DNA of 64,000 nt, taken from the NCBI GenBank assembly GCA_030062745.1, contig CP099839.1, positions 38,517,816-38,581,815 of the forward strand, written 5' to 3'. Below, piece after piece: positions 2,874 to 30,770 of this stretch (position 1 is the stretch's first letter; every line of letters begins with the position of its first letter). The translations under genes were made by a program, and so were the position numbers. The notes beneath the pieces were generated by a model, which saw only the letters and a program-made list of their open reading frames with translations, was not told the origin of the DNA and ran no database searches. The stretch comes from Capitulum mitella. Its lineage: Eukaryota > Arthropoda > Thecostraca > Pollicipedomorpha > Pollicipedidae.

Positions 2874-5319
2874 CCGGCAGCGACAGGGCACCGGCCCACT
2901 GGGCACCATGGACGGCACGGTGATCGCTGTAGACCACCCGTCTCCCTCATAGAACGCGAACGGCGAGGCATCGCCGGTGCTCTTGGTCGTGCGGGTCAGC
3001 CGCTCGATGAAGTGAATGTCGAGGTACCGTTGTGAAGTTTATCGCAACAACCTGGTTTGTGCACGGTGACGTCTGCACTACCGATGTCTAGTTGGACATG
3101 CTGATAAACCAGGACTTCCTCGACGCAACGTTAAACAAGAATATTTTGAGATATAGTGCCTGCAGGCAGGCAGGAATGACGTCGGGTCACATGTCGTGCA
3201 AGTCTTAATTCGTGAAGGATCTTGTAAGTTTTCCCAGGGGAACGTTTTTACTGGCATCGTTGTGTGACCTACCTTCGCCGGGACGCGAAAGGCATTTTGT
3301 TGGTGAGCCGCAAGCCAGCATGAACGGCAAGCAATAATATTTACGGGTGTGCGTTCTAGGATTTGCGACCCACAATATTTTCCAGTAATTGGTAAGAACT
3401 GGTGGCCATTTGATAATCACGAATGTAAAATGCCCAATCGCGTTTCATGGGGCAAATGTGATATCGAGCGTAGAAGTCATGCAGCAGCTCCGTAGGGATG
3501 GCACGCATTGATCTTGTGATATGCATGCTCTCGTGGTAAGTGTCCCCTGGTTGCGCTGTTTACTCTGTTTTAGCAATTACATTACATATTACGCGTTTGT
3601 AAGCACATTCATGGATTCCGGTTGGCTCCATAGGGGCTCATGTGGCCGAAGGGGACTAAGGATAGGACATGACATGGCCCCCTTAGGATGGAAAATTTAA
3701 CTTTTTTTGACGCGCCAGAAATGACAATAAAAATACCCCGAACTCGAAAAGAAAGTGGTCACAATCCGATAACGTTTCAGTTTTCCAGCGGTTTGGGTTT
3801 ATCCTGGCACTTTGTTATGCGAAACCTTGGCTACGCCCTTGGCTCATATGTGGAGTAGTTAGTGCTTACCAAGCATACCCGTCACTGGCCTGAGCCAGCG
3901 CAGACTGGTAGATTATCCTTGCCACGAAGACCTGCTGACATTGAAAGACCTTTTCGTGGGGCTCCTATGTTGGCCCTAAATCCAGGACAGAAATCAGAAC
4001 TGTGTGCTCCGTGGAATGATAGCAATGAAGACCACAATAACTCATTTGTGGTCTGTCAATTTCCGTCAGCCGCCGAGAGGAAGCATTGGTGCTGACCTTA
4101 ACGGAAAGGTGTTTAGAGGCATGAATATGCCGAAGCGCACGTCGGAGCAGATACTACCCGACAGACGACGGGACAAAATAAGCCGAGTCTACGCAGGTCA
4201 ACATGGGCCGAAAATCAGCACGCAAGCAGATTCGAAAACAAATTTCCAAATCGCAAATAAGGAATTAAGTGGCGTGTTTGCAAACTCTAGTTATACTGGA
4301 TGTGTTGACGCACACCTGCTGAAATAAATGATATTTTCGTTTTAAGTAACTCCTCGTTAAAACGATCCCCCGCTGCAGTGCAATGTGCGCACACGACAAA
4401 CGAACCCAGCGAACTGCAACAACTGAGGATTGTTCCAATACCGTCGATATGAAACAACGCATGCATTTTGTTGCAGAGGATTCTCCTACACGGCACCCCA
4501 CTTGTCCACAATGGCTTCGCTACCTTACCTTCAAAACCGTTTCTCTCCCATTCGCAACTTTTCACATCTCATTAGCGATGCAGACCAATCCAGTCAGTTT
4601 CAACCAATATACACGTTCCCGACACTAGTGGAGAGTCTGAACGTGTTTTATTGTTCATCCACAGGACGTCAACATGCTGCGGCTGTCTAGTCTAGCCTGT
4701 CCTGCATTACTCGCTGAATAAGCAGCCTCCATTGGCACTAGCACGTCAGGAACGGCAAACCACGGATTACCGAATATTGTCGAACGTTAACCTTGCTCTA
4801 CTTCCAAGGCAAGAACCTGCGTAATCGGTTCTCCTGATCAGGCACAAAACGTAGTTCCTCCGTACAAAATAATGAAATAAAAAATCTGCCGCTCCGGCGG
4901 TGGGAACTCTGGACACACTGGGACTTAACGAACGTTACCCGCGCGTCCGAGGGCTCCCAGCACAAGGCGCATCTCCTCTCAACAGCAGACATCTCACGCA
5001 ACGCGTCTCAGCGCTCGCACCCAAATAAAGCGTATCGAAAAAGCGCGGACACTACCTCTCCGGTGGGACGTGCCGAGCTGAGCAGCGTCAGCGTCTGCCG
5101 ACCACTCCGGCCGCTCCTCAGTTACCCCCGGCCGCGGGCCGACGGCGCGCCCCAGCCGGGTCCCTTCACAGCGCCGCGAGCAGTTTGTACTAGCACGGGA
5201 CAGCGTCCCGTCACCCGGCGGCCGTGCGCCCAGCCACACTCCGCCGCGTCTGGCCAGGCCGGCCGCGCTCCGACCCGGCCCGACACTCGTACCCACGCCG
5301 ACGGGCGCGGCCGGCCGGC
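2874..5319. other. Intergenic region between the LRR gene and CHK2 (convergent 3' ends)
   Basis: No convincing exon is visible; the open frames are short and of mixed composition. Both neighbours point into this stretch, so it should contain their 3' UTRs. The GC-rich part at 5050-5319 directly follows the CHK2 stop and is probably its 3' UTR. Confidence 0.5.
4647..4652 (-). terminator. Candidate CHK2 polyadenylation signal AATAAA
   Basis: TTTATT on the plus strand reads AATAAA on the minus strand, about 670 bases past the CHK2 stop codon. It is supported by position only. Confidence 0.3.
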
Positions 5320-8300
5320 CTAGCGCGCCTCGGAGGCCAGCGTCCGGCGCCGCTGGCTCGGCGGTCCGGCCCGCTCCTCTGCCCGCCGCTTGGCGCGGCC
5401 CATCAGCTTCTCGGCCGCGGCCGTCACCTTCTTGTCCTGCCGGTCAAAGACGAGCCGTCAGACCTGTCTGACATGGTGACTATGGCGGACAGAGTGGGGC
5501 GCGACATTTAGCGGAAGATTGCCTTCGATGATGGACGCGTCTCGTCAGAGTACGAAGAAAGCGACATCAACAGTAAGGGAGAAGAACCTTCCAGATGGCA
5601 TCATCTGCGAATTTCTCATCCTAACTCATCACAGGATTTACCGCCTTGAACAAAAATACACGGTACCTGCGTAATGCACATTGGCGAAATTTGCCTCGGT
5701 GCGATTAGAATCTGAAATAATTATCTTACACTGTCCTCAGTGCACAAAATCCCGATCCACTGTAACATGCAAGTGCGTACAAAAATCTGAACGACCCAAG
5801 CCTAACCAGCCACAAAGCACCAGACATCCTCCGACCAATGGCTGTTTGGCTAATCACTGGACCTTTTGGGCACTCCGTCTGTGCTAAGGCATATCTTTCA
5901 TCCACTACCGACGGGGCGTACAGAGCGCCGCCGGGCCGGCCTGCACTCACCTGCATCCAGGGGTGCCGGAGCGCCTCCTCGACGGAGATGCGGCGCGCCG
6001 GGTCCACGGTGAGCAGGCGGCGCACCAGCTGGCGGGCCGGCTCGCTCACGCCCGTCCACTGGCGGCCCTGGAATGTGACGCGGCCGCGCAGGATCTGCTC
6101 CCGCAGCGGCATGTCCTTGTAGTCGGCCGAGAACGGAGGGTACCCGGCCAGGCTGCAACGCCGCCGCCAGCCGCGTCAGCCGCCAGCACGGGTCGACACG
6201 ACGGCGGCGACTCCGCGCACAGGAGGGGGAAGGGCAGGGATACACGACAGCGTTCACTGCGCGTGTAGGACAAAGAAGCTGAGACACGGGAAAGTCCCTG
6301 ACCGCATGTACACACACAAGGGAATGTCAAAATAGAACTCCACAGCATTAACAAGTGACGCAAGAAAACGGACACAGAAAAAGGTGACGACAGCCCACAC
6401 AAGCGGTCAGAAACGAAATACCCTTATACAGCCTTCAGATAATCTGATCAGAGCTGGCAGATCCAGTCACTCACACCTGACCGCGATAATATTCGGCGGC
6501 CGTGTCCGGCCATCGCACCTGGCATTACCCGCACATATGGCCGTCTTTACTGGGCCGCCCGTCTCCAATACGTCGCCGGCCCGGCCTCCGGGCGGCTCAC
6601 CAGATGAACAGGATGACGCCCAGGCTCCAGCAGTCGACGCTGTGCGTGTAGTGGGCCTCGCCGCGCCGTGTCAACACCTCGGGCGCCACGTAGGTGGGCG
6701 TGCCGCACAGCGTCTGCAGCAGGCCGTCATCCTCCACGATCTTGGCCAGACCGAAATCGGTGATTTTCACCAGCGTCTCCCGGTCCTCCGTCGCCAGTAG
6801 CACGTTCTCTGGCTGCACGAAAACACGATAGCTTAGCATCATTTCAGGCGTTAAACTACTGCTGGTGAGTCAACGCTGAATTCCAAGGGCCTCACACATT
6901 CCATGAAGCCTAATGTTCCCGAACGCAGATTTTATAATCGAACTGGTAGCATCGTTCCATTAACGAAACAATGAAAACTGATGTCTGATGCGCACTACAC
7001 GAAGACCAATTTGCCTGTTTCCTTTTTTCGTAAATGCATCGCATCTTGCACGACATGGAGTTCGAACACGCCAATTCTAACCAGGCTGACCTATCTCCGG
7101 TACTCTCCAGTCACCTTCAGATCTCGATGAGCGATGCCCTTTTGGTGCAGGTAACGAACGGCCTGCAGCATTTGATAAAAATACAGCTTAGCCGTCGGTT
7201 CATCCAGCTGCTGCAGAGTCATGACTCGATCAAATAGCTCGCCGCCCTCGACCAGTTCCAGGACGATGTAAACGGCCGATTCCGAGTCGATGACGTCGTG
7301 TATGCGAATGACGCACGGCTGGCGGCGAGCGTACGCAGGGGTCAATGGGCCGGGCCGGCCCGCCGGCAGACCGCAATCAGCAGTGTTGTACCACGCAGGC
7401 CGGGCCACGCCACACCTTCCGCTCTACGCTGTTATGGCGATTACACATCGGCAATCGTTTGAAAAGGACTATCATATCAAGCGGGGAAACAACTGGTCTC
7501 TTGCCGACCATTAGCCGATGCTTATCGCCGACCTCCTGGAGACGGACAACGGTGCCACCACAGTGAACGCTATGAGCTACGTGGAAGTGGCACGTCAGCA
7601 CTCGTTTGAAACTGCAATGAAGTGAATCGCAGACATTGCCGACTTGTGTTTTCTCCCTTTTTCTGGCTCCTTAAAATGTGCAACTGAGTACCCTAAGCCG
7701 AAACTGATAAGTAATGGCGTAGCTCCTCGGCTTTCTGTTTGAACTGCTGGCATCTTAAGAATTCTCATTCCATTACTCCAATGTTTCTTTTTGTGAACAG
7801 TGCAACCCTCTCACATCCCGCATCAGACGAGCAGACGCCAGAGTCATCCTTACATGGTCGAGCGCACGGAGCACGTTGATCTCATTGGCCACCGCCTGGC
7901 TCTGGTTGATCTGGTGCTGCCCTCTCACCGTGAACCGCTTTTTCGAGATGATTTTCACAGCGAACCTCTCAACAGTGCCCTGGAAAACCACACCCTTGCG
8001 TAAAATGGCCAGCGCCGAAGCCATTCCACGTCTGAATCGACGCACAGACGGCTAAAACGACTTGGTGCGAGGCCAATGGTTCAAACAGCCGTCGGTGAGC
8101 ACAACACAGCTGGTCCGGAAAGGCGGCTTTGACCACCTGGTCCCACGCTGTTCTTTGACCACCTGGCCCCGTTCACTGACCTTCCGGAAGGCGAGCCTGA
8201 CCTCGCCACAGGCGCCAGCGCCCAGCACGCGACTCATGGTGTACTGGCTGCGCAGCTGCTCCGGGTAGTTGGCGGAGTCGTTGTCCGTGTAGTCGTGAAA

Positions 8301-9702
8301 GACGAACACTGTCCACAGCCCCGCATCGACGTAAGGGGTGGCGTCCCGCCCATAACGGCACGTGACAACATATAGACGAGGTTCTCATTTCAGCAAATAC
8401 GGATCGGGGCATGCTAATACAGGCTCAATGCCAAATACCCACACTAAGATGTGCGATATTACTGTGATAACGGACACGCAGACGTAAAGTGATGCACATT
8501 TGCAACAGACGCATTTCTCATGTCTCTGCCGTTTGCTAAAATCTCTTTTCCGTCACCTACAGACGCGCGACTCGCCGTTACACTAGCTCGCCTACCGCCG
8601 TCTGCGAAAACCAGGACTGTCTGTCTTCAGTAACCATGGCCTGCTCGCCACCGGTTCCACCCACCTTTGAGCGTCTTAATCGAGAGCGAGATCTGATCGT
8701 TGTTCTTGATGGCCACCTGCCGGCCGCGGCCCACCAGCTCGCCGTTGACGAAGGTGCCGTTGGAGCTGCAGTCTTCGAGGTAGACGTGGTACCCGCTGGA
8801 AGTCCGATCGCGCACCAGTCTGCGGACAGACGCATCCGCACCCGTCGTTATGCTGGCCAACATGATGTTACTGAAAACTCAATGTCTTCAGTCTAGTAGA
8901 ATGACAAACATGCCCATGTTGAGCCCAATGACTACCAGTCAGGACTGATATCAATATTTTCGCCCATATTATCATTTTTCGTATGTGTAGAAGGAAAAGA
9001 TCAACAATTCAATGTACGTCACGTCAAAAAGTAAAAAACAAAACCATCTGATATCTAGTTCATTGATTTCCTCAGGTCAAATATAAGACAAATTTAGCTA
9101 TAGGTAATGAACTTGCTGTAGCAGTGCAGTTCCACATGTTCAGTACATAACAAGTTGCCCCGATGCTCAAGTCAGCTTCGGGACCAGCCTTAACTCCTTC
9201 TCAGTGTGAGGAGCAGCTGCTGAACACTCACTTGAAGTGCGTTTTGCTGATGGTCAGCAAGTACTTCTCAGTAAGGTTTTGGACGCCCACAACCACATCG
9301 CATCCATCACCTCGGCCTAACGTATACACGGTCTTGTATAAATCTGGAATAAAGGAGCAGCAGATACTAAGATTACAAAGTTACGACTGAGATCCGTTTA
9401 TGCAACTAAATTCCCTTTCCCACAAAAATAAAGATACTTCCTGGCTGCATTCCCAGGGTATCCAAATTATGATACCAATAGCCACATGAAACACTTGTGA
9501 AACATTGTCAAAACGTATGACAACATTTACCTAGGCCTTCAAATTTGGCTCTAATACCAACGGGGAAAAGTCGACCCCACTTGAGGCCTTCCCCTCCAAA
9601 TGCTGGCTCCTCCTGACTCTGGGAGCAGAGCGTGTCGATGTCGGTGATGTCCTGCGTGTTTGGAAGCCCATCCTGACTGTCCGCTGTTACAGTCTGGCTC
9701 AT
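5320..9702 (-). CDS. CHK2: Checkpoint kinase 2 (CHK2/loki), complete, nine coding exons
   Basis: Nuclear Ser/Thr kinase that relays ATM signals after DNA breaks. Exons on the minus strand: 9702-9531, 9343-9232, 8819-8665, 8308-8181, 7979-7854, 7318-7115, 6812-6601, 6152-5951, 5436-5320. All junctions are GT-AG with matching phases, 1428 nt and 475 aa in total (human about 543). An SQ/TQ cluster lies at residues 2-30 (S2, S9, T16, S27, S29, each followed by Q). The FHA domain spans about 40-145, with G67-R68, S90-K-T-H93 and N115-G-T. In the kinase domain the glycine loop is 176-183, the ATP lysine K198, the HRDLK motif 295-299, DFG 318-320, T-loop TLCGT with T333 and T337 (equivalent to human T383/T387), and APE 342-344. 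The C-terminus carries a bipartite basic motif at about 451-468, a likely nuclear signal. The start is the ATG nine bases into an exon after a CAG acceptor, so a 5' UTR exon lies upstream. Confidence 0.95.
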
Positions 9703-9711
9703 GTTTATCCC

Positions 9712-12448
9712 CTGCCAACACACAAACACATGGATTAAATGATGATGATGCAGCTGGGGCAGCTATATGGCCTAGGTACAGACCAAACTGGGTGCAGGGT
9801 AAATGGGATATGTTCCACAACTGCTCTTGAGTTCAACTTTAACCTTACAAGATTGGATGAGAAGAGGCAACATCACCCTACATGCCCTAGCCACTGTTTT
9901 CTGAATAAGGCCTTGGAGAAGAGCTTCACAAACACATGAAGGCTGATTCCACATGAACTTGGTTACTGCTATTACTGTTTTGGGTTTACATTACAGTTTC
10001 TTGATTTATGCACAACTTTGACAAAAATGTTGAGATCCATTAACACCTTCCTTGTACCTAAAAATACTGAAAACATATGTATGAAGGTTAAATAAAAGCC
10101 CATATCAACAGAATCTACAGTGAATCACAGCAAAGCTGATACTACCCAAATGAGCCTTTAAACAATGTGTGGTTTGACCACTAGGAATTAATATGCTGTT
10201 CTTCCAATCTTCATTTGAATGGGCAAGATATTGGAAACAACACAAGGGAAAACCTGGTGACCTATTTAGTGGTGATAATTATGCTGTCCACGAAATAAAA
10301 TTAACATGTCCAGCACAGAGAGCTGCACTTCTGGTTTCCTATAACTTTAGGACTGGGTACACATTTCCAGGCCATTGACTGCCCTTGCTTGATTTGAACA
10401 TGTCAAAATGAGGAGCTGTGTATGGGGAGTAAGATGCCTCACTATTGGCAGGGTTCAAGTGCACCACTGTGGCCACTCACCTCTAGCTTTGACAATGGTC
10501 TACATAACTGACTGTAACAGCCACCCAACACAGATAAGCATCAATGTTGCTTACTGCAGACATCAGTAATTCCAGACTGCTCAACCATTTTACAATGAAC
10601 ATCTCCCCACGAAGGTAACACATTTTCTGCTGACCACACTACTTATCTATACAGTTTACACATGGGCACAATGATGGGCATTTTTATCTACCCAGTAACA
10701 ATATTGTGACACTGATGGGTGGCACATAAACCCAACTGAAAGCTTCACAATCTGAACAGATTAGCAGAATACAAATGAACACAAAATGAGACAATGTACA
10801 TTTAGCTTCCAGGACAACTACAAAATTCACTTATAACCATCACACAAAGGGAGAAACACAAAGGATGCGATGCAATATTGCACAAAAGCCTTCAGTCATG
10901 CAATATATTTCAGCTTAAATGTGTTTGTTTATCCCTAAACCACCATGTTATCACAAAATATCATGCCCCAATTAACATTTCTGATTCAATGAATTTTGTC
11001 AAACGCATCAGCATATGCCTGCAAAAAACTATGCCAAATACTACTGCAACCCAACCAATGACAGCTGATGGTTATTGGGACACTGGACACATATGCAGAT
11101 TGTTACTGAATCTTATGATACCAATACCCATTTCCATAACAGGATTGGATTACATGTCAGATTTCCCTTGAGAAGGAAATCAGGATTTTCATACTCAGCA
11201 AGTCAAGATTATGTTCAAGATTTCCAAGCCCAGATTACTTCAAGAAATCTTGTATTTGCCACCAATTACAGCAAATGTGTGATACTTTCCTTCACTGCAT
11301 ATGGAAATCTATTCTATAGTAGATTATGAATTGACTCAGTTGCTGTGAGAGACTGCTGCTGTGTAAAATCTGAGACCTTCACAGCACCAATTTATTGTTT
11401 TTTGTCCATAAGCCACCAAGAGAGAAGAAACTGATTTCAGCACTAGCTCCCCTTTGCAAGACACCAAAACAAATGCCACACATAATCCTACCATATGCTT
11501 CCCATTCACTGGTAAACCAGATTCCCTTGGGAAATCTTCTTTTTCAGTATGGATTAGCAAATCCCATCCAGTTTGCTAAAAAGGTGTTTCTATAACCTCT
11601 GAAATTGGGATTTGCAGGGGAATCCAGATTTGCTAGTGCCACGGAAATGGCGCTAATGACAACACATCACCATTTACCAACTAAAAATACACATCAGAAT
11701 CAACTTGACCTTTCCTTACCAGGCCTACCAAGTATTAAGTCCTTAACCTTTTTAACCACTCCTATTTCCACCCCTATGGTTCATTGTCCAACCTACTTCC
11801 AATTTAACTGAGTCACTGAATTTGCAATGCCATGTGCAAATCTGAACAATGATAAATGACATAGCTTACATTAATTTTGCTCTCATTTTCTTTCCTGGAA
11901 GAAGGGGGGATATTGCTGGTTCTGCTTAATGCCACAGTGGCAAGATAAACAAGACATGCAATCATGTTTCATTTAGTCTATGCCATGTCATCCTCTATGG
12001 AAATAAAAAACATTGGCCCTCAAAGTTCCCTTTCACATAAATTTGTGTTCCCCAAACAGAACTCAAGCAAAAGTGCAGTTTAACCAATTTTTTCCTTTGT
12101 GTGTCACAAAAGAACAAGGTCAATTTGCAAAGGCAAGAACAGCAAGACATTTTAAGCATTGAGGTACAAGATGGATGACTCTCTGCTTTTGAGAGATTAC
12201 CGAGATCATCCAATGCTTATTTCTCAAAATCATGGTGCTAAATACCACTGCAGCAGCTTCTCCCTGGTCCCACATTCTTCTGCCCCTGTGCCTTAGGCTG
12301 AACATGTTTGCAGGATTTATCGCACCATGCAATGACATTTCCTCTCATTTCACAATGCAAGCAATCCCTGCATATTTTTTGGCAACTTGCTCACATCACG
12401 AAAGCAAAACAACCATACCAGATTTTTGGAAGCCCAGATAAGTGGCCT
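9712..12448 (-). other. Inferred first intron (5' UTR intron) of CHK2, strongly CpG-depleted
   Basis: The first coding exon of CHK2 begins with an acceptor (TGTTGGCAG) and only nine bases of 5' UTR, so transcription must start further upstream. Between here and the CpG island no gene is visible. The sequence is AT-rich and nearly free of CpG: I count about ten CG dinucleotides between 9900 and 12400. A possible matching donor on the minus strand is TCTG|GTATGG at about 12418; another is GTAAGC at about 12733. Confidence 0.5.
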
Positions 12449-12492
12449 CCGTCCATAATCCCTGCTTCGGGGCGGGCCGAGCCGAAAACAAT

Positions 12493-12500
12493 CCGGAAGT
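12493..12500 (+). promoter_or_regulatory. ETS-type site CCGGAAGT
   Basis: A full ETS core at the CHK2-proximal edge of the CpG island. ETS sites of this form are enriched in bidirectional promoters of animals. Confidence 0.35.
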
Positions 12501-12785
12501 GGAAAGCCAAAATTACGACCCAATTACTCCCAGAGAGCTTGAAAAGGCTCTTGAGCGATCCTCGGCATTATGAACAGTCGGATGAAAGAACTAATGTTGA
12601 AGCAATAACGGGTGTTATCCTTTCAAGCCCAACACGGGAAACTTCCAAGATTCACGTGTAATCGTCCGTGTCTTCCCACGCTCCATTACCCACGAGCCGA
12701 GACAAAATAAACCTTATGGCGCGCCATTTGCTTACGTTCTCTTTAGTTCTTCTTCAGAATCCTTGAATATTAGTGCCAGAAAATT

Positions 12786-12793
12786 TGACGTCA
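12786..12793. promoter_or_regulatory. Second CRE palindrome TGACGTCA
   Basis: A perfect 8-bp CREB/ATF consensus, 211 bp from the other copy and inside the same CpG-rich block. Confidence 0.4.
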
Positions 12794-12996
12794 TGGAAAA
12801 GCAAATTACCACATTATTTCTCCAGGGTACATTTCCCAGTAGTATTTATGAGTGAACCGAAACCTCTAGACGCAGCACTATCGCAAAAAGCCTTTGACAT
12901 GAAGAATTAGGAATTAGTTTTATACGAACTTTTCGGTTGTAAATAATTTCCTAATTTGGCCGTTTTCAACTGTGGCGCAGCAATGATGATGGTGGT

Positions 12997-13020
12997 TGAC
13001 GTCAAATTTGGCGCCATCTT
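12997..13020 (+). promoter_or_regulatory. CRE, E2F-like and YY1-like site cluster
   Basis: A perfect TGACGTCA (12997-13004) is followed two bases later by TTTGGCGCC (13007-13015), whose end overlaps GCGCCATCTT, the reverse complement of the YY1 core AAGATGGCGC. The initiator TCAGTG follows at 13031. YY1 sites of this type typically sit next to start sites of TATA-less genes. Confidence 0.45.
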
Positions 13021-13032
13021 CGTCCTCCTCTC

Positions 13033-13158
13033 AGTGTGCAGGGCATGACCGCTCTTCATGCCTTGATGCTTTAAAAGCATTTCTCGCACTCATCATCCAA
13101 AAGTTTGCCTCGCATCGACAGCTGAAGAATGGTTTTCGTATGGTATGTAGCTATCCGA
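13033..13158 (+). other. Inferred noncoding first exon of ATM
   Basis: It would begin at the initiator A (13033) and end at the strong donor GA|GTAAGT (13159). The matching acceptor would be TTCTTTGTTGCAG at about 15928. It contains only short upstream ATGs. This is inferred from motifs, without transcript evidence. Confidence 0.35.
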
Positions 13159-13955
13159 GTAAGTTTTTCTCCTTTTTTTAGCTGGGGCATTTTCGAATGC
13201 TAAGCTTGGAGATCTAGAGGTAACATGGTAGGCGAAATATATGAAATATTCCATTTTTGTTCAGGTGGAACTTCAAAGCCATAAAAGAGGAATTTGTCAA
13301 TTTGTCATTTGATATTATTGCAAAACTTGTGTCGTTGGTGATTTACAAGAGTGGCTGCTGTGGTGTAGGTTGCAGTATTTGTCAACAAAATTTTAATTAA
13401 TGTGCATGTAATATAAAATTTCAGATGCACAATTTATGGAAATCTTTTAAGAGGGTGCCCAAAAACAAAAACACAAAGGAAAAAAAAAAAAAGGCGCGGG
13501 GGAAAAAAGACTGTTCGAGAAACAACACCAATTGAATGATCAGTTCATGCTACCTAACCTGAGAGCGAATAGTAGGTGATGGCAGCATTGAGCTCCAGTG
13601 CATAATGTTGTTGTTTTCGACAGCGTCTCCTTTTGCCACCTATGTGTCATCCAGTGTGTTTGGTTTATGTCGTGCGCTTCTAAAGGATTGCCCAATTCTA
13701 TTACCCCAATTGAATGATCAGTTCATGTGTGGAGCATGGGATGGCAGCATTGTGCATGGTAAATAAAGTCCTGGAGCAGGGTGAATAAATGCAGGCAAGA
13801 TAATTGTAAATTATAATTGTTGTTAAAAAATTGGTGGCAGTCTCTTTCACAACTTGTTTCACTGATCTTAAAGATGAATTGATCATGCATATATTTATGC
13901 CACTATATACCTTGTGTTGATGTCTGCCATATATGTATAAATAGAGGTATATATA

Positions 13956-13957
13956 TG

Positions 13958-13991
<34 letters not shown>
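13956..13991. repeat. (CA)n-(TA)n microsatellite
   Basis: An ACACAC run leads directly into ATATAT. Confidence 0.9.
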
Positions 13992-14041
13992 GCACTATTT
14001 AGTATTAGCGAATTCAAGTTCTTGTGTCCTGTAGCCAAAAT

Positions 14042-14695
14042 GGTAATCCTTACCGATCGCACGCCATGCACAGAGTCGAGGGTAAGGTTAACGCACGAGT
14101 GTAGTTTCTGATTTCGCCACCAGGGTGATATTCGTTCTTTTTCTCGCCGCTAGGAAGAGTACGTAAAAATACTGACATTCGCTAGGATGGTCCGCTCAAG
14201 AACGCGCGAGTGTAGTTTCCGGTTTCGCCACCAGGGTAATATTCGTTAGGTTAGGTTAGGTTTGGTTAGGTTAGGTTAGGTTAGGTTAGGTTAGATTAGA
14301 TTAGATTAGGTTAGGTTAGGTTAGGTTAGGTTAGGTCTGAACGAATTCATCTGCTTTCCATCCTGGTTCGGCAATTCTGGAGAAAGTGGTCCTTTTTTCA
14401 TGATTGACCTCACCTGTGACGTCATCAGTGGGTCAAAAGTAAAAAAGTGTGTAAGTCACAGAAACGAAACGTTCGGTGCTATCAACTGGCGTTCGAATCA
14501 GCCGAATCAAACTATTGGTTATCATACCATTGGTTCTTGAGCGGAACCATCCTAGCGAATGTCAGTATTTTTACGTACTCTTCCTAGCGGTGCGAAAAAG
14601 AACGAATATCACCCTGGTGGCGAAATCGGAAACTACACTCGCGCATTAACCTTACCCTCGACTCTGCGCATGGTGTGCGATCGGTAAGGATTACC
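14042..14695. mobile_element. Palindromic MITE with 8-bp target duplication and telomere-repeat core
   Basis: The left arm 14042-14203 and right arm 14533-14695 are near-perfect inverted repeats of about 163 bp, beginning GGTAATCCTTACCGATCGCA. The element is flanked by a perfect 8-bp direct repeat, GCCAAAAT (14034-14041 and 14696-14703). An 8-bp duplication fits hAT, P or Merlin-type transposases. The interior has a second, direct copy of part of the arm (14204-14245) and a (TTAGG)n array. No coding frame exists, so it is non-autonomous. It is CpG-rich inside a CpG-poor intron, which suggests recent insertion. Confidence 0.9.
14246..14335 (+). repeat. Interstitial arthropod telomeric repeat (TTAGG)n
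   Basis: About 18 pentamers of TTAGG, with one TTTGG and three TTAGA variants, lie entirely inside the palindromic transposon. TTAGG is the ancestral arthropod telomere unit. Confidence 0.9.
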
Positions 14696-16088
14696 GCCAA
14701 AATTGCACCTGAAAATATTTTCAAGCTTTTGTTTATATAGAAATTTGATAGGGTTATATTTATACAGAACTCAGTAGTTACTATACTGGATGACTCATAC
14801 TGCATGATGTGTTATACCTGAGTGATCAAACAGCCATCCTCAGGAGCACATCTGTCTAAGCCATGTGCATTGCCTTAAGCACTGTTGTGTTGTGTAGCTT
14901 TGGAGAGGTGTACCCCTAGAGGCATAACCAGTACCATATGACATTATGTCAGTTTTTGCACATTCTGCAACAAGACTGGAAAAGATGTTGCTTTTTGGTG
15001 TTGAAGAACACCAGAGAATATGTGCTGTAAAAACAGTTCATGCTTCAAAAGTTTGGCCTTGTGCCTTCATCAGAAAGCTACATGATAACCATGTTGACAA
15101 ATTCCTAACTCTGCAATCAAATGGTCCTGTCTCCATTCATTAAGTAGCAGATGTGATGTCTTAGCTGACTTACACCAAAAATGCCAACATAAACTTGTGT
15201 TACACTTTGCCAGATTTTGTACACCACAAAAAATTCTACTGAGACACCAAGAACAAAAACCAAATTTCCAACCTTGTTCTGCAGTGTTTGTAAGACTAGT
15301 TGAATATGATGGCATCTGTTATGACATAGCATGTTCCAAGACATTTTGACTTGCACATTCTTCTTTCCAATGGTTTTGACAGGGTAGAAAGGTATAACAT
15401 GTAAGAACTTCTCATTTTGTAAATGCAGGTTTTTTAAATTAATTTATTAGATATCCCAGGCCTATTCATTGCTTCTGTTAATGAAAAAACTATGTATTGT
15501 ACCGGTGCCTTTTTTGTTTCTGTTAAAACAGTGAAAGGGATGTATAATTTCTGCTATGATTGGCCAGGTCCCTAGCATGCACTGCATCTCTCAATGTGAA
15601 ATTGCATTAATGTGCTGTATTTCAGTCAGAAACATTGTGTGTCATAGACAACACTTATTGAATCCTTGTATTAATGAAACCAGAAATCAAGGAGACCGAA
15701 TAAATGGTTGGTAACTTGTCATTTTTGTTGTCAGTGATAGTGTAACTGAGTTTTCCTATTCTGAAATAGCTTTAACAAGGAACCATTCCTGTCATGCTAG
15801 CCAACTAGCCATACTGCATAGCTTAGGAGTTAGGTATCTGTGTGATTACTGGCCTCATTGTCTTGCTTCTGGAAACATTGTCAGCAAGCAGTAAAGGACT
15901 TGATGACTGAGTCATTCTTTGTTGCAGGTCATTATTGTGGATACCCAGCTGGACACAATTTTGTCAGGAACAGCAGAGTATGGCCTTGCACAGCTGTAAA
16001 TCTGTGAGGTTTCGATAGCCCAGCAGGGCAGTTTTTGACAGCATTAAGCTGCCATTGGCCAGGTCATAAAGTGGCTATGCCAGGCACA

Positions 16089-19000
16089 ATGGATATGCTG
16101 ACAGACTGCTGCAGGGGCCTTGTCTCTTACAAGCTGAAGGATCGGCGCGAGCACGCCGAGCATCTGCGTAGTCTGCTCTCAAACGAGTCGCTCTGCGCTC
16201 AGCTGGACGAGGCCGGCCGAAGCCGCGACGGCGTCACGTGGATGTACGTGCTGGACAACACCATCCTGTTCTTCCAAAAGGAGATGACCAAGGCAGAGGA
16301 GGACGAGCGCCACGGGCGGAACCGGGGCTCGCGCGAGCTGGCGCTGCGCCAGAGCGTGTCGCTGCTGCGGGCCGTGGCGACGCGTGCCAACCAGCGCCAG
16401 GCGTGCGTGGACGTCGCCCGGCTGGCCGACGAGGTGGTGCGGGCGCTGCGCCATTCGTTTCGGCGGGAGGCGGCCGGACCCGATCTGTGCGCCCTGCTGC
16501 ACGGCGCGCTGCTGGAGCCGGTGCAGGTGCGCTCCGAGCTGCCGCTGCTCGCCTGGCGCCAGCTGCTGGACTGCGCGCGGGAGCTGTACGCTGACCCGCC
16601 GCGCAGCCTACCGCGCGCCACCCTGCTGACGCTGCTGGCCGCGACAGCCAAGCACGGCTGCCGGCAGACGGCGCTGCTGGCGCGCACGCACGCCCTGCTC
16701 CCGCTGGCGGCCGACATGCGGCTGCGGGACGAGCCAGCGCCGGCGCTGCGTTTCATCAACGGCCTGCTGGCGCTGACGGCCGCCGGTGGCCGGCGCGCCG
16801 TCTGTCACGTGGGCGACCGCCTCTTCCTGGCCGTGTACCAGGTGTCGGAGGCGCGCTGCCAAGACGCCGTGCTGGACTTCATGCAGCTGCAGCTGTGTGC
16901 GCGCGCGCCGCTCTGCCGGCGTTCAGGCGGTCCTCCCTGGAAGGAACTGAAAAAGCTGTACCAGCTGGTGGTGGACGAGGTGGACGTGCGCTGCCGGGGG
17001 AGCCGGATGGCACGTCGCGCCGGCCCGGCCGGCCACACACTGCCCGCAAGGTGGGTGCGGCTCTTCAGCTGGGTAGCCTACCTGCTGTTCGAGGAGGAGG
17101 ACGCCGAACTGGACATCACGCAGATCCCGTCCGGTCCGACCGGCAACTGCCGGCCGGCCAAGCGGCGCCGGCTGGATGTGGGCTTCGGCGCGCTCTGCCA
17201 GCGCATCCACGAGGAACGCGATGTGCCTGAGTGCGTGCCGTGGCTGCAGTTGCTGACCAGCTTGGTGACGGTGCACCCTGACGTGCTGGCGCCGGCGCAG
17301 TTGCCGCCCTGCCTCAGCCTGCTCATCAGCTGGCTGGCGGCCGACGGGCGCGCACCCGAGGTGGTGCAGCATCAGCTCCGGCTTGCGGCCGCACTGGTGG
17401 CCTGCCAGCCGGCTGCGGCCCATGTGCCGGTCCAACTGCGCGACGACGTGGCCGCCGCCTGGGCGCGGCTCTGGGAGCTAGCCGTCAAGGCGTCGTCCCT
17501 GGTTGGCTGCCAGGAGGCCAGCCACGCCCTGCTGCAGGCGATGATGCGCGGCCGTGTGGCGCGGCCAGGCGAGCACTTCCTGGCGCTGTATCTGCAGCGC
17601 GGCGCGGCCGCCGGGCCAGCGCTGGTCCGCTCGCTGCTGACGTTCCTGCGCTTGTTCGCCGTGCCGCAGCCGGCCGGGCCGGCCACCGACCGGCTGCTGA
17701 CGCGCGCCCAGCTGATTGACTGGCTGCTGGCCGCAGAGGCGGAGCCGGCCGCCGCGGCCGAGGTGCTGGCCCGGCTGGTACTACGCGACAACACGGCCGA
17801 GCTCGGCCTGCCCACGGAGGCGGAGGCGCCGCCCCCCGACCCACACGCCGAGCTCGGTCAGCTGTACCTGCGCACCGAGCTGGAGACGCCCCTGCAGCCG
17901 GACCGAGCCGACCCGGAGCCGGAACCGGCCGCCGATCTGGGGAACTCGTGCATAGCGCCGCTTAAGACCAAGGTGCTCACGGCTGTGTCCGAAATGCTGG
18001 TGGCCGCCGGCGAGGGTGGCGACGCGGCGGCCGGCGGCGACGGCGCCCTGCCGTGGTGCCGGGCGGCGTGCGGCGCAGCTGGCCGGGCGATCGCCCTGCT
18101 GCGGCTCTGGGCCGACTGCGGCATGCTAACGCCCACCGAGCTGGAGCGCGCGGCGCCGGCGTTGCGCGAGCTGACGGAGCGGGCGCTGCGCGGCGCCGCG
18201 GCCGAGCTGGCGGCGGACCCGGCCGGCCGGGCGGACGCCCTGGCCTCGTTGTTGGCCGACGTGCGCGCCCTGTTCACTCTAGTGGCGGCGCCGGCCGTGC
18301 CAGGGCGGCCGGCGCCCGGCCGCCGCGCCCTGGCCGCACTGCTGGTCGCTGCCGCGCCCCAGGCGTTCCTCGAGACGTGCCTGCGCCTGCTGCGGAACGA
18401 CGCGGGTCTGTTGATTCCGGCCGGGCGGCGCGGCGCCGGCGCCGGCGCCGCCTTCGAGCCGCTGGAGCCGCTCGACATCGCCGACCCGAGCCGCGGCGTG
18501 TTGGAGGCGCCGCTCGACGAGCTGGAGCAGCTCCGGCTCGGCGCCTGCACCGCCCTGACGGCCCTCCTCGCCACCGACGTTGGCGATGGCCCGGAGGGCG
18601 ATGCCGAAGTCGGTGATGACCCGGCAGCGGCCGCCGCGCCTGACGGGCTGGTCTCGGACTTGCTCCGCGCCGTGCTGGACCTGCAGGTGCGCTTCCCGGG
18701 CGACATGCGCATCGCAATGCACCTGCTGGACGCGCTGCCGGCGCTGGCCGTCATGCGCACGGAGCACGTCTGCTTCCTCAGCGACCTGCTGCTGCGGGTC
18801 TGCCGCGAGTGGCCGCGGGACGCGCAGGTGAATCAGGCCGTGCTAGAGGCCATGGCCGGGGGTTATGTGCAGCTGGTGGCGCGGCTCGGCTTGCAAAAGG
18901 ACCGCATCGACGCCATGAAGTTCGTGAGTGTAATGAACACGAAGGCGGAGACGGCGCGTTTCGGCGAACGCTCCCTGCTGGTGTACCTGCGGCTGCTGGC

Positions 19001-22000
19001 CGTGCTGGCTGAGGCCGACCCGGCCGGCCGCTGGGCGCTGGTCGGCGGCCGGTGGGTCGGAGAGCCGCTGCTGACGCACCTGAGCGCGCCGCCGGAGCCG
19101 GCCGACGCCGGCTCGGACGTCTGGAGCTCGCACGCCTCCCGCATGGCGGCCGCCGACCACCTCGGCGCGGTGTTCGCCGCGCGCGAACTGCACCCGGCGT
19201 CGGACGGCGCGGCGCCCACGCTGCCCGAGATGTTCGACAAGGTCTACACGGCCGCCGTCGAGTGCTTGGCGCCGCCGGCCGGCCGGCCGGACTCGTACGG
19301 CGACGACATGCCCAACAGGACGGCGGCGCTGTGCTGGGCGCTGGCCCGCGTGGCCGCGGCCAGCGCCAGCTGCCGGCCGCAGGCGCTGCTGGCCCTCTGC
19401 CAGGTGGTGCGCCGGCGGAGCGTGCAGCTACCGGCCGTGCTGAAGACGCTGCGCCATCTGGCGGTCGCGCTGGGCGCCGCCTCGCCGCGGCGCCTGCTTA
19501 CGGCGCACCTCGACTACGTGGTGTCGCAGTGGCTGTCGGAGCGGCTGCCCCTGCTCGAGTTCCCGCACCAGTTGCTAGAGTACGGCTCGGCGGCGGAGTT
19601 CTTCGACGAGCAGCTGGGTCGCGTGGTGCCGCACCTGCTTGGCCGGCACGCGCCGGAGCTGGCCGCTGTGGCGACGCTGCTGGGTCGAGCGCAAGACGCG
19701 CTGGTGCTAGCCGGCCTGCCGCAGATCGTGGCGCAGCTGGTGCCGGCGCTGGCCGTCAGCGGCGCCCAGCCGGCGACCGCCCAGAGGCTGTACAGTCGCA
19801 CACGCGAGCTGGTGGGCGGAGCCGAGACGCTCGACCGTGCGCTGGCCGCCCGCACCGTGGACGTGGTGACGGCCGTGTTCCGCGCGCACGGTTCGCGGCC
19901 CAGCCTGCTGTCGGCGTGCCTGCGCTACGTCGCCGACCGCATGTACGGCTGCAGCCTAGTGCTGGCGCTGCAGCGGCCGGCTGACGGCTTGCAGCGCCTT
20001 CTGCTCACGTTGGCCGAGGACGCCGCGGACGCTGGCGACGGTTCCGCGCGCCTGGACGCGGCGCGACCCTATTGCGCCCTGCTCGACCTGCTGGCGGACG
20101 ACTTTGATCACCTGGGCTTGCAGCGCCACTTCGTGATGCGCGACGTGGCCGGCTTCGTGGGTCACCGGCTGGCAGCGCTGCGGCTGCCGGCGGACGCCGG
20201 GCTGGCGCTGCTGTACGGTCGCGCGCTGTCGCGTCTCAGCGGCGCCTGTGCCCAGCTGGCCCCGGAAACACTGGCCGACAGCCTGGAGCCGATCTGCGCC
20301 GCGCTGGTGCGCCTGCACGCGGCCGGCACCGACGCCGACTGCGAGCCGGTGCGTGACGCGGCCGCTGCCGCACTGTCGGAGCTACTGACCGAGCCGCCGG
20401 CTGGATACCGGGCGGCAGCCGAGGCACTCGCCTGCCTACCGGCGGACGGGCCGCTGGCCTTTCTGGGCGCGGGCGCGGCACCCGACCCGCTGCGGCGACT
20501 GGCCGACGCCGGCGCGCTGGAAGAGAACGCGCTGCGGGCGGCGTTGCTCGGCCTGGAGCGTGACGGACCGCCGCCAGACTGCGACGGCGGCCTGCTGGCG
20601 CGCCTGCTGCGACTGGCCGGCGCCGCCGACGGCGAGCTGTGCCGCGCCGCCGCCCGGCTGCTGGGCGCGCTGGGCCCACTTCCGCTGCACGGCGCCACCG
20701 TGCGGCCACCGCCGCCTGTCTGGCAGCGTTTGGACGCGGCCGGCTCGGACGTGGCGCGTGAGGCGCACCTGCTGGCTAGGCTGCACGAGCTGCTGACGGA
20801 CGCCGAGCTGGCGGTGGTGCGCGCCGCCGGCGATGCCGTGCGCGCCCTGCTGGCGGAGCCGGCCGGCGTGAGCGGCCGCGACCTCCTCAACAACGAGCTT
20901 CCCCGCCTTACCGAGCAGCTGCACCCGTTCTTCGCCGCTCGGCAGCGGCTACCCAGGCCGAAGGCGCTGCCCGCCGGCGAGGCGCTCCGTAAGATCGACT
21001 GTTCGGCGTTGTGGAGGCCGGAGCACGGCCGGTTCGAGGCCTGGATCGGCGACCTGACGCTGGCGCTGCTCGAGGTCGGCACGCAGGTGAGCCCCGAGTT
21101 GACCGCGTACGCCGGGCCATGCCGCGCCAAGGGCGCCGCCTTCTGCCAGGACGCACTGCCTTACGCCACCAAGGCGGCGCTCCTGTTCGACGGCCAGTTG
21201 CGCGACTGCGTCGGCCGCTGGGTAAACCGGCTGTTCCAGGAACACCGCAGCCTGTGCAACCGTCAGAGCAGCGCGGCGGTGTCGACGCCGGCGCCGCTCT
21301 CGACGCCGGCGTCGGTGGCTACCGACAGCCGCTGCATGCAGGCGCTGCTGGACGTGGTGCTGTACCTGCGCCAGCAGCCGCTGCCGCCCGGCGGCCGTCC
21401 TGACTCGCCCTGGGAGCGCAACTTCTGGCTGGCGCTGGACTTGCCGGCGGCGGCGTTCGTGGCATTGCGCTGCGGTCGCCACTGCGAGGCGATCCTGCTG
21501 GCCGAGGTCTGCTGCTACGCGCGGCGCCGCGCCGGCGAGCCGCTGCTCGGCCGCTCGGCCGTCGACCAGGACCTGCGCGCGCTGCTGCGCGACGCGCACG
21601 CCCAGTTGGGCGACGCCGACGGCGTGGCGGCGGTGCGCGCGGCCGGCGGCGACGCGCCAGACCTGCCGATTCACCTGGAGCAGGAGGGCGACTGGCTGCG
21701 CGCGCTGACCGCCTACGACTCGTTGGCGCCGGAGCGCACGGCGGCCGTGCAGCGCGGCCTGCTGCGCTGCCTAGCGCAGCTGCAGCTGTTCGACACGGCG
21801 CAGACGCAGCTGCGCGGCCTGGCGGCCGAGCTGGGCCGGCCGGACGCCGTGCCCGACCACCTGCTGGAGGCGCACTGCGAGGCGGCCTGGCGGCTGGCCG
21901 ACTGGGCGGCGCCGCCGCCGGCCGCCGCCCGGCCCGGCGTGCACCAGGCGCTGTTCAGCTGCCTGACCGCGTACCGGGACGGCGACACGGCGGCGGCGGC

Positions 22001-24965
22001 GCGCGCCGTGGACCTGGGCCGCGCCGCCGTGCTGGCCGGCCTGGCCGGGCCGGCGGCGCCCACCGCGCACGCGGCCGGCCGCTGCCTGAGCCAGCTGCAG
22101 ATGCTCTGGGATGCGGACCGGCTGTGCGCGGCGGGCTCGGAGCCGGCGCTGAGCGCGCTCTGTCGGCGCTGGCGGGACGCGCCGCCAGCCGGCGCCCCCT
22201 TCAGCCTGGAGGAGCCGCTGCTGGCGTTCCGCGCGGCGCTGCTGGCCGCGCTGGCCGAGCGGCAGCCGACGCTGGCCGACGTCGGCCGGCTGCGACTCGA
22301 CACGCTGCTGCAGCTGAGCGAGCGGGCGCGCGCCGCCGGCCGACTGGCCGCCGCCGAGCGGGCCGCCGCCCAGCTGGACGCCGACCAGCTGCCGGCCGTG
22401 CGCTGCCGGGCAGAAAACAGCTGGGCGCGCGGCGACTCCGAGCAGGCGCTCTGGCTGTGTCGCGACCTGCTGGAGGCGGCGCCGACCGCCTCGACGGCGC
22501 AGCAGCGACTCCAGCTGGCCCGGCTCAAGGTGCTGTACGCCGGCTGGCTGTCGGAGGTGCACGCCGAGAGTCCACGTGCCATCCTGGAGCAGCACCTGGC
22601 GCCGGCTATCGAGCAGCTGAACCAGCTGATGGCGGAGGGTGAGTCGCCACCGACCGTTGGCCTTTTGTGGCGCCTTAGCACAATCTCACTCGGGATTTGG
22701 CTGGCAATTAACCATGCTGTTGACATCCTTATCGTCGTGAATACCCCATGCGTCTTGCTGTGTACTGACTACAATATGCATACAGTACGCGGAAATGTGT
22801 GGTAGTGTATGCACCCATTCGATGATACGACTCGTACACAACTCATGTTTGACGTCACGGTATACCTACTCAGAATGAAGCGTGCTTGTGTTTACTTTGC
22901 GTACGCGCCTCGGTGGGATGAGCTTCGTTGTAGCCGGAGCTGTTTTGAGCTGCCTGTGCTGCAGCGGCCACTGACTGGCGTGCCGCCTGCCTCAGGGGCC
23001 GGCTCGGAGCGGGCGCTGTTGGACGCGCACCACCTAGCCGGCCAGTACGCCGACGCCCAGTTCCAGCGTATAGACGAGCGCGTCTCGGCGGCCGCCTTCG
23101 CCGAGAAGGAGGCCGTGGTGGTGCGCATGTGCGAGGATGCCGAGAAGTTCAAACGGCGCGCGGAGGACAAGACGTTGGACGTGAGCACGCGCCGTGACAT
23201 GACGCGCCAGATGACGCAGCTGTCGCGCACCGCCGAGCTCGACGAAGCCGAGCTGCGCCAGTGTCGCGAGGACCGCGCCGCCTTCCAACGCCAGGCCGTG
23301 GCCGGCTACCTGCGCTGTCTGGAGCTGGGCCGGCACCGCGACCTGCTCATGTACCGCGTGGTCGCCCTCTGGCTGGCCGACGCCTCCGGCCAGGTGTGCG
23401 CGTTGCTGGCGGAGACCGCGCAGGGCCTGCCGTCGTACAAGTTCATGCCGCTGCTGTACCAGTTGGCGGCGCGGCTGGGCCGGCCGGGCTGGCTGGACGA
23501 ATCGGCGCGCCTGCTGGAGCAGCTGCTGGAGCGCTGCGCTGTCGAGCACCCGCACCACACGCTGCCCGTGCTGCTGGCGCTGCAGCACGCGCGCGAGGAT
23601 GTCGGCAGCGCGCCGGCCTCCGACGCCGCTTCCGAGCAGCGCACGGCGGCCGCCAAGCGCCTGCTGGCGCGGCTGCGCGGCGACGCGCGCCTGAAGGAGC
23701 CGGTCCGACAGCTGGAGGCGGCCAGCCTGGCGCTGATCCGGCTGGCGTACCACACGCACAGCGGCAGCAGCCAGCAGGGCCGGCTGCCGGCCACCTGCGG
23801 GCTGGCGGGGCTCGGCGAGCTGCCGGCCGTGGCCGTGCAGACGGTGCCGCTGGCCGTGCGGCCGGACGCCGACTACGCCGCCGCGCCCACCGTCGTCCGC
23901 TGGGACAAGAAGTACGACATGGTGGGCGGCGTGAACGCGCCCAAGAAGCTGCGCTGCCTGGGCAGCGACGGCCTGTCGCGGCCGCAGCTGCTCAAGGGCC
24001 GCGACGACCCGCGCCAGGATGCCGTCATGCAGCAGGTGTTCTCCGTGCTCAACGAGTTGCTGGCGGAGCGGGCCGCGCCCGGCCAGCGGCCGCTCGCCAT
24101 CCGCACCTACAAGGTGGTGCCGCTGTCGCAGCGCTCGGGCCTGATCGAGTGGTGCGTCGACACGCAGCCGCTGGCCGAGTACCTGACCGACGGCGGCCGC
24201 GGCGGCGCGCACGCGCGCTACCGGCCGGACGACATGAGCCCGGCGGACGCGCGCCGTGCCATGCGCGCCGTGGCGAACAAGCCGGCCGCGCTCAAGCGGA
24301 GGGCGTTCGCCGACGTGTGCGCGCGCCTGCAGCCCGTGTTCCGGCACTTCTTCTTCGAGCGCTTCCCGGAGCCCAGCGAGTGGTACGAGCGGCGCGCGGC
24401 CTACACCAGCAGCGTGGCCGCCTCGTCCATCTCGGGCTATGTGCTCGGCCTGGGCGACCGGCACGTGAGCAACATCCTGATCCACCAGACCACCGCCGAG
24501 GTGGTGCACATCGACCTGGGCGTGGCATTCGAGACGGGCCGGCTGCTGCCCACGCCCGAGACGGTGCCGTTCCGGCTCACGCGCGACCTGGTCGACGGCA
24601 TGGGCGTGGCCGGCGTGGAGGGCCGCTTCCGGCGCGCGTGCGAGCGCACGCTGGCGGTGCTGCGCGACAACTGGCAGGTGGTGCTGACCATCGTGCGCGT
24701 GCTGCTCGACGACCCGCTGTACGCGTGGACGCTGACCGCCGACAAGATCCACCGGCTGCAGGAGCTGAGCGTGGACCGGCTCTCGGTGGCCGTCGCTGAC
24801 AACGCGCAGGCCGAGCGGGCGCTGGCCCGGCTGGCCGAGAAACTACGCGGCCAGGAGCTAGGCCAGGTCATGACCTGCGCCGCCCAAGTGAGCCACCTGA
24901 TCCAGCAGGCGCGCGACCCGGACAACCTCAGCCGGCTCTTCCAGGGCTGGCAGGCCTACCTGTGA
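16089..24965 (+). CDS. ATM: ATM kinase (tefu orthologue), complete, one coding intron
   Basis: Phosphatidylinositol-3-kinase-like Ser/Thr kinase that senses DNA breaks and activates CHK2. Exon 1 is 16089-22638 and exon 2 is 22996-24965; GGTGAGT donor, CTGCCTCAG acceptor, phase 1 on both sides, 2839 aa (human 3056). The frame is closed by TGA at 16005-16007. ATGs at 16077, 16089 and 16095 are possible; 16089 has the best context (CACAATGG). The N-terminus has a TAN-like helix (LVSYKLKDRREHAEHL). A long helical-repeat region follows, then the FAT region with YADAQFQRID and YKFMPLLYQLAAR. Kinase motifs: LLKGRDDPRQDAVMQQVF, GLGDRHVSNIL (about 2667) and HIDLGVAFE (about 2688). The FATC end is LSRLFQGWQAYL. 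These match ATM rather than ATR, TOR or DNA-PK. GC content is extreme, so antisense frames are long by chance. Confidence 0.95.
22639..22995 (+). other. The only intron in the ATM coding sequence
   Basis: 357 bp, GTGAGT to CTCAG. Base composition drops from about 70% GC in the flanking exons to ordinary levels, and open frames on both sides run into it without meaning. Splicing joins residues ending LNQLMAE to GAGSERALLD in frame, within the FAT region. Confidence 0.9.
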
Positions 24966-25079
24966 GACTGGCCACCGGGCAGTCCCGGCCGGCTCTTCCA
25001 GGGCTGGCAGGACTGCCTGTGCGACCGACCACCGGCCAGTCTCAGCCTGCTCCTGCACGGCTGGGAGGCCTACTTGTGA
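24933..25079 (+). repeat. 57-bp in-frame tandem triplication of the ATM FATC end
   Basis: Units start at 24933, 24990 and 25047, exactly 57 bp (19 codons) apart. Unit 1 encodes RLFQGWQAYL and the stop TGA (24963-24965). Unit 2 encodes RLFQGWQDCL without a stop. Unit 3 encodes LLLHGWEAYL and ends in TGA (25077-25079). The frame stays open between the two stops. Confidence 0.85.
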
Positions 25080-28000: not shown

Positions 28001-28278
28001 GCAACTCTGTCGTATGTAAGTAGTGGAGCGGTGTTCCGTATCGGTTAAATCTGGCATCAGTGCTTGTGCCTTAAAATTACCATTGTTACCATTACGCTAC
28101 CTTGTATTTCATTAATTACAACGGCTACGGTGCCCAAAAATATACTAATGTTGCAGCACTTCTTACTCTGACTAGTGACTGGGGCTGGAAACCCCCAAGT
28201 TGTTAAGCAGACGGTCGAGGCCGAGATAAAGCGCAGAGGAAAACAAAAATTCCAATAATTACCAGAAAGTCGGTGCCT
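25080..28278. other. Intergenic region downstream of ATM
   Basis: No convincing coding exon is visible. It includes the ATM 3' UTR, although I see no AATAAA close to the stop (the first on the plus strand is near 27340), and a promoter-like patch at 27758-27862. A GC-rich block at about 27430-27850 has open frames on both strands that resemble nothing I know. Confidence 0.45.
27758..27862 (+). promoter_or_regulatory. Candidate TATA promoter with short first exon
   Basis: TATAAAAA at 27758-27765 is followed by an initiator-like TCATTC (27793-27798) and a possible donor GTAAGA at 27858, which would leave AT as the last exon bases so that ATG is completed by the next exon. Arthropod cuticle and secreted-protein genes often look like this. 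No downstream exon was found, and an LTR or chance match is equally possible. Confidence 0.25.
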
Positions 28279-29485: not shown

Positions 29486-30215
29486 GTTAAAACTAATTCT
29501 AAACATTAAAACTAATTCAAACTACGAACCAGCCTGCGCTTTCCCCGACTCATTGGGAGACAACAGCACAACCAACTTTTGTTTGGCACAGACAGTTTGC
29601 GTGGGAAAATACAGCTTGTGACATAAGCTCGTGATAAAACTGATTTATGCTCACCCATTGTGATCTGTGGCAAACCAGACGTCTAAGTGCGACAAATTTG
29701 TGGGCAAAACCAACTAGAATGGTCGAGATCGATGAACTTGCTAGTTTTTAGAGCCAGATGCATGCCTTTCTGCTCTATGATAACGAATACGATTTTTGCA
29801 GCTACGATATGAGCTTTCATGAAAATATATTTCCCGTCAATAACCACGTAAAGCATAGCTGTACATCGCACATAACCCTGTGAAGTATAGCAGTAAATCG
29901 CTCAAAGATGACACAGTACGATGATAAGGAGACCATACACATTGAGCACCATGTTGACTCACTAATCAACCATACTCATTCACCAAACTTATTCACATAT
30001 TCGCCATACTTATTCACATAATTCGGTGCATTGTACGTCCCATGGTGTCTTGTAAAACAGCACATATGAAAGCAAAAATGTACTACCATCATTGCCATTC
30101 CCGTACCACCATAATCACCAATTCTTGTAAGGGCATGAGACGAAACTTCCTTCCGGCGGCAGTCAGGGACGGCTGCTGCCTGCTTCTCCACGCGCCGGCC
30201 GGTTGACGGGCCCGC
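29486..30215. other. Spacer between transposon copy A and the SVWC gene
   Basis: No gene is seen. A short tandem pattern around TTATTCACATA occurs at about 29978-30022. The 3' UTR of the SVWC gene should lie at its right end. Confidence 0.5.
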
Positions 30216-30494: not shown

Positions 30495-30770
30495 GACGGC
30501 GTGTGCCGCTCGGCTGGCCCTGCCGCTCTTTTACGTGCTGCGATCGGCCGCGACAGTGAGCTCCTCTGGCGGCACGGTCACATGTCACCGTTAGCAAAAA
30601 CAAAGAAATGAGAAAGGAGTGTGCATGGGGTTGTCAGGGGAGAAAAAAGGAGTGCACCTCAGAGAGCAGCCCTGAGCCAGCGCGCACGGCAAAACTTGGA
30701 AGAACAAGAAATAGTCCTAAGAGAGTTGCTCTGAGCCAGCGAGCAGGGTAGCGAGTTTGGATGCAGATTG

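Follow-up and report, generated by a model that had tools for sequence, protein, structure and literature searches.

ATM and CHK2 are direct neighbours in the genome of Capitulum mitella, where they lie on opposite strands and point away from each other. The make-up of the 6.4 kb between their coding starts suggests that they probably form a divergent couple fired from a single bidirectional promoter, an island of retained CpGs at ~12.3–13.7 kb. Positions are those of the window, i.e., the whole 64-kb stretch of DNA analysed (C1:38517816-38581815). It lies within one contig, 45.5 Mb long, of an assembly that comprises 16 contigs and 477,042,490 bases. The head-to-head order, the completeness of both genes by domain content, and the absence of a gene between them had been put forward in a preliminary description. 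All three points hold, and the marks within the interval go further than that description in pointing to a shared promoter.

Two complete genes and the interval between them

The nine CHK2 exons yield one 475-aa frame once spliced, with eight introns in 1.43 kb of coding sequence, and the product carries FHA and Pkinase domains (Pfam). Among solved structures, its top match is human Chk2 (E 4e-129). Chk2 kinases are built from an SQ/TQ cluster followed by the FHA domain and a Ser/Thr kinase, and the same order is found here. The protein also resembles Chk2 more than it does CaM kinases. Of its eight [ST]Q sites, five are within residues 1–33, an accumulation reached in none of 20,000 shuffles. 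A search of all 477,042,490 bases of the home assembly placed all nine exons at this locus, and the FHA stretch had no counterpart at other places among the 91 matches listed (scoring covered 90 of the 282 first-look candidates).

ATM consists of two coding exons, which splice into a protein of 2843 aa. FAT, PI3/PI4-kinase, and FATC domains score above the Pfam cut-off, while the TAN motif at the N-terminus reaches E 3.7e-5 but, at 24.4 bits, stays under the 27.1-bit cut-off. For the frame holding the second coding exon (22806-24962), human ATM is the best solved match (E 1e-156), followed by Tel1, with ATR at E 3e-59. This comparison rules out that the gene is ATR, mTOR, or SMG1; it is nearer to ATM/Tel1. 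A pseudogene is likewise ruled out, as the lone in-frame stop falls in the well-bounded coding intron. Translation may start at 16077 or at 16089. The latter, given in the preliminary description, has the better context by eye. At its other end, the gene runs into a repeat of a 57-bp unit (24929-25080, 2.7 copies, 81% matches) that duplicates the FATC-coding end. The repeat stays in frame beyond the TGA, reading RLFQGWQAYL stop, RLFQGWQDCL, and LLLHGWEAYL stop, the third copy being translated by eye.

In the home assembly, a single locus matches the ATM kinase region in full. Eight further matches are weak; comparison with the PDB identifies three of these loci as mTOR, SMG1, and ATR, while the others resemble DNA-PKcs, PI4KA, and PIK3C3 as judged by eye. 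Each gene was thus found once in the assembly, with the ATM copy count judged by the kinase region.

Between the two genes, no third gene was found by Pfam, Rfam, or ARAGORN. The list of open reading frames comprises 55 of at least 50 aa, including the ATM frame and the CHK2 exon frames. None of the 19 interval frames compared with Pfam reached the cut-off, and three sub-threshold matches scored 13.6–15.2 bits against cut-offs of 25–27. Neither an Rfam match at gathering score nor a tRNA (ARAGORN) was detected anywhere in the 64-kb window. ATM and CHK2 are thus adjacent and on opposite strands, with no gene found between them, as in a divergent pair. One scan of viral contigs for relatives returned five pattern matches, none of them confirmed.

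The interval does contain a MITE-like element within the proposed ATM leader intron. It carries an internal array of GTTAG (telomere-type TTAGG) and is perhaps recent, because it is still CpG-rich. Further repeats lie elsewhere in the window: a minisatellite at 1610-2696 (19-bp unit, ~59 copies, 68% matches) and a 33-bp tandem repeat at 59402-59505. The latter covers the start of a 348-aa open frame (59468-60514) that weakly matches Methyltransf_22 (21.5 bits versus a cut-off of 22.4).

Table 1. Features of the ATM–CHK2 locus in window coordinates; splice and promoter signals are predictions
Feature	Position	Strand	Description
CHK2 coding region	5320..9702	-	475 aa; [ST]Q-rich N-terminus, FHA, Ser/Thr kinase
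CHK2 coding exons 1–5	9702-9531, 9343-9232, 8819-8665, 8308-8181, 7979-7854	-	
CHK2 coding exons 6–9	7318-7115, 6812-6601, 6152-5951, 5436-5320	-	
CHK2 first coding exon, stretch 5′ of ATG	9703..9711	-	Predicted acceptor abuts it; exon start 9711
Left CpG desert	9714..12300		7 CpGs in 2587 bp, o/e 0.07, TpG 1.64, CpA 1.42; proposed CHK2 leader intron(s)
CpG-retaining island	12301..13700		1.4 kb, 51 CpGs, o/e 0.84; proposed bidirectional promoter
Inverted repeat, left arm	12781..12793	+	AAATTTGACGTCA, 13 bp, with CRE-type TGACGTCA
Inverted repeat, right arm	12997..13009	-	Same 13-bp AAATTTGACGTCA repeat, second TGACGTCA
E2F-type TTTGGCGC	13007..13014	+	Only plus-strand copy in the window
Candidate ATM leader exon	13031..13158	+	Predicted; initiator-like TCAGT at 13031 to donor at 13158 (7.4) or 13142 (8.1)
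Right CpG desert, first part	13701..14041		1 CpG in 341 bp
MITE-like insertion	14042..14695		654 bp; 150-nt terminal inverted repeats, 95% complementary; CpG o/e 1.25
Right CpG desert, main part	14696..15926		2 CpGs in 1231 bp, o/e 0.05, TpG 1.62; proposed ATM leader intron
ATM first coding exon, 5′ untranslated part	15928..16076	+	Predicted acceptor upstream
ATM first coding exon	16077..22638	+	6562 bp
ATM coding intron (sole one)	22639..22995	+	357 bp, phase 1; in-frame stop at 22803-22805
ATM second coding exon	22996..24965	+	PI3/PI4-kinase domain with GLGDRHV and HIDLG, FATC, stop

CpG deserts, island, and strand skew

The interval is divided into two CpG deserts and an island that retains its CpGs. 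In the deserts, TpG and CpA exceed expectation; of the other CpGs in the interval, 42 belong to the MITE-like element and one to 15927-16076. On either side, the desert gives way at the first coding exon (at 9682 and 16143), 3.1–3.3 kb away from the island's midpoint, and the ATM coding exon is GC-rich and shows no CpG depletion. Among 1230-bp stretches elsewhere in the window, the lowest o/e is 0.56 within 1-9500 and 0.44 within 16100-64000. By 1-kb tiles, the region poorest in CpG outside the ATM–CHK2 interval is 54001-56000, with o/e values of 0.43 and 0.56.

Such depletion is rare among the tiles sampled elsewhere in the genome. Tiles of 1 kb with a CpG o/e below 0.25 account for 3 of 64 in the window, all in the ATM–CHK2 interval, and for 1 of 131 outside, where two tiles fall below 0.4. 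The outside tiles stem from 20 2-kb samples placed at round coordinates and from longer stretches, of which eight (~10 kb each) lie at or next to other kinase genes and two on the flanks of the window. The lowest of them falls on an adenylate kinase gene, at its 5′ end (C4:14994001-15006000); three frames of this gene match ADK, one of them slightly under the cut-off. Its desert of ~2.7 kb extends from a dense cluster of CpGs to the first coding exon, which it covers; most of it lies upstream of the start codon, and later exons are outside. No strong donor, by the score used, and no clear strand skew were found at this gene. With this one gene as positive control, deserts may signal where methylated genes of this genome have their 5′ ends. 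The mark is not universal, as no CpG desert surrounds the weak methyltransferase-like frame at 59468.

Strand composition gives a second mark. The skew of G+T versus C+A changes sign at 12892, inside the island (p 0.001; MITE-like element excluded, significance by permuting 100-bp blocks), and its direction agrees with leftward transcription on the left and rightward transcription on the right. The single skews are weaker, GC skew being modest (p 0.02) and TA skew not significant (p 0.27).

Since both first coding exons begin at predicted splice acceptors, each gene probably has leader exons further upstream. The acceptor before ATM scores 5.7 (background 99th percentile 4.9) and that before CHK2 2.5 (background 95th percentile 1.9), on a crude scale that rests on approximate splice tables and on which known CHK2 acceptors span −6.7 to 6.8. 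On the CHK2 side, the island contains no strong donor (best 7.2 at 13559 and 6.8 at 12419). Stronger donors lie in the desert, at 11720 (9.5) and 10481 (11.1), so the CHK2 leader is uncertain. In simulations, a 13-bp inverted repeat occurred in 27 of 1000 cases and two copies of TGACGTCA in none of 1000. The island motifs are nevertheless weak evidence, because TGACGTCA and TCAGT recur in the window (7 and 72 times, respectively).

A proposed shared promoter and its alternatives

One CpG-retaining island between two deserts, with the skew flip inside it, points to a shared promoter. From this island, CHK2 would be transcribed to the left via leader intron(s) of ~2.5–3 kb and ATM to the right via a leader intron of ~2.8 kb. 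Germline methylation acting over a long time would have removed CpGs from the first ~3 kb of each transcribed unit, while the promoter island, being unmethylated, would have kept them. The inverted CRE pair and the E2F-type site are candidate common inputs that could scale sensor and effector kinase together. We infer the methylation origin of the deserts, the leader introns, the single promoter, and the co-regulation from these sequence marks. In favour of this proposal count the complete genes, their single copies, the deserts with their island, the scarcity of comparable tiles, the skew flip, and the predicted acceptors. Against it count the weak single skews, the single control free of skew, the lack of a strong CHK2-side donor in the island, the poorly discriminating acceptor scores, the weak motifs, and the ATM coding exon, which is not depleted in CpG.

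Related observations in arthropods point both ways. Excerpts of a locust study describe a restoration of CpG at core promoters, and promoters that often lie far from the start codon, with leader introns (PMC8011201), and passages of a crayfish study describe housekeeping gene bodies as methylated (PMC6172769). According to parts of a further paper, however, methylation in arthropods is biased mostly toward exons, and the crustaceans studied are reported to have lost gene methylation, which counts against the methylation reading (PMC7343188). No report of a methylation bias toward 5′ introns was found in the literature looked at.

The same interval could in principle be ordinary intergenic DNA, with separate promoters near 9.7 and 15.9 kb and the island acting, e.g., as an enhancer. 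Methylation upstream of the genes could also produce deserts, and the desert of the adenylate kinase gene, mostly upstream of its start codon, would allow this. Yet predicted acceptors abut both first coding exons, the DNA is CpG-poor right up to these exons, unlike a CpG-retaining promoter, and the skew flips in the island rather than at the coding exons; we consider two promoters unlikely. It is appreciably more plausible, though still on the improbable side, that the adjacency arose by a chance rearrangement in this lineage and has no regulatory meaning. Some functionally related neighbours are expected in any genome, and this pair was singled out after the fact. However, the symmetry of the interval about one island exceeds mere adjacency, and a promoter common to both genes, if real, would tie them together regardless of their history. 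Finally, a join of two loci by misassembly is highly improbable: the window has no N letters and sits inside one large contig, and both deserts point to one island, as a random join would hardly produce.

A further possibility adds to the shared promoter rather than opposing it. An ATM mRNA may have been copied back beside CHK2, replacing an intron-rich parent and recruiting the CHK2 promoter via a new leader intron. For these steps jointly, we see a real chance that falls somewhat short of even. ATM has one intron in 8.5 kb of coding sequence, compared with eight in 1.43 kb for CHK2. In the same genome, the kinase regions of ATR, mTOR, and SMG1 are broken up, each into three or more short open frames, and no second ATM kinase region was found in the assembly. 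Precedent exists in amphioxus SYCP1, as far as sections of the source describe it (PMC5803294). On the other side, ATM still holds one coding intron, and long frames are not rare here: several kinase matches lie in frames of 550–1148 aa, a PI4KA-like frame (by eye) has 359 aa, and high GC alone lengthens frames. Moreover, no A-run of at least 9 occurs in 24966-30500 and no direct repeat of at least 11 bp is shared between 15701-16080 and 25001-30500, although poly(A) and target-site relics decay and their absence weighs little. If true, this would be a very long case of a retrogene (8.5 kb coding) and would concern a core genome-stability gene. More speculative, and in our estimate rather unlikely as a whole, is a one-locus checkpoint cassette, in which a retrotransposed ATM inserted upstream of CHK2, gained access to its promoter by a newly formed leader intron, and displaced the original ATM. 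The doses of both kinases would then depend on a single switch that is controlled by CRE and E2F elements and subject to 5′ gene-body methylation.

If a kinase and its main substrate kinase do share one promoter, the locus would offer a natural test of whether linking successive pathway steps in one divergent unit matters, and of how such links arise. Paired CpG deserts around one island could further serve, within this genome, as a sequence-only flag for the bidirectional promoters of methylated genes.

Comparison with known divergent pairs

In Drosophila and human, ATM and CHK2 are located on different chromosomes or far apart. Human ATM and NPAT diverge from one bidirectional promoter. The present locus is similar in that ATM diverges from a promoter it is proposed to share with another gene, but the human partner is NPAT and not the substrate kinase of ATM. 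No earlier description of an ATM–CHK2 gene pair was found among top-ranked open-licence literature without preprints, a scope that does not establish absence. A study of meiosis genes in Daphnia names both a member of the ATM family and Chk2, and its excerpted text does not state that the two are adjacent (PMC2680839).

A further parallel is the SYCP1–CHIC locus of amphioxus. Sections of the source describe SYCP1 as a retrogene with a single coding exon that replaced its parent, gained a new 5′ UTR, and took over the bidirectional promoter of AmphiCHIC (PMC5803294). In both cases, a gene poor in coding introns stands head to head with a multi-exon gene and has a leader reaching to a shared promoter, here a proposed one. 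They differ in that SYCP1 has a single coding exon and its parent is shown to be lost, whereas ATM keeps one coding intron and its origin as a retrogene is a possibility. Unlike ATM and CHK2, the SYCP1–CHIC partners are also not successive steps in one pathway, as far as this source goes.

Divergent gene pairs are already known, and ATM/CHK2 is a notable example. Like divergently paired genes of fly and vertebrates, the two are neighbours on opposite strands, and passages of the sources report that such pairs in human often include DNA-repair genes (PMC2670823, PMC12672016), many of which lie in divergent pairs (PMC2670823). In the same passages, fly and vertebrate pairs are defined by start sites less than 1000 bp apart (PMC2670823, PMC12672016), whereas the ATM and CHK2 start sites, predicted rather than mapped, would lie in the island, as CpG content, skew, and splice signals suggest.
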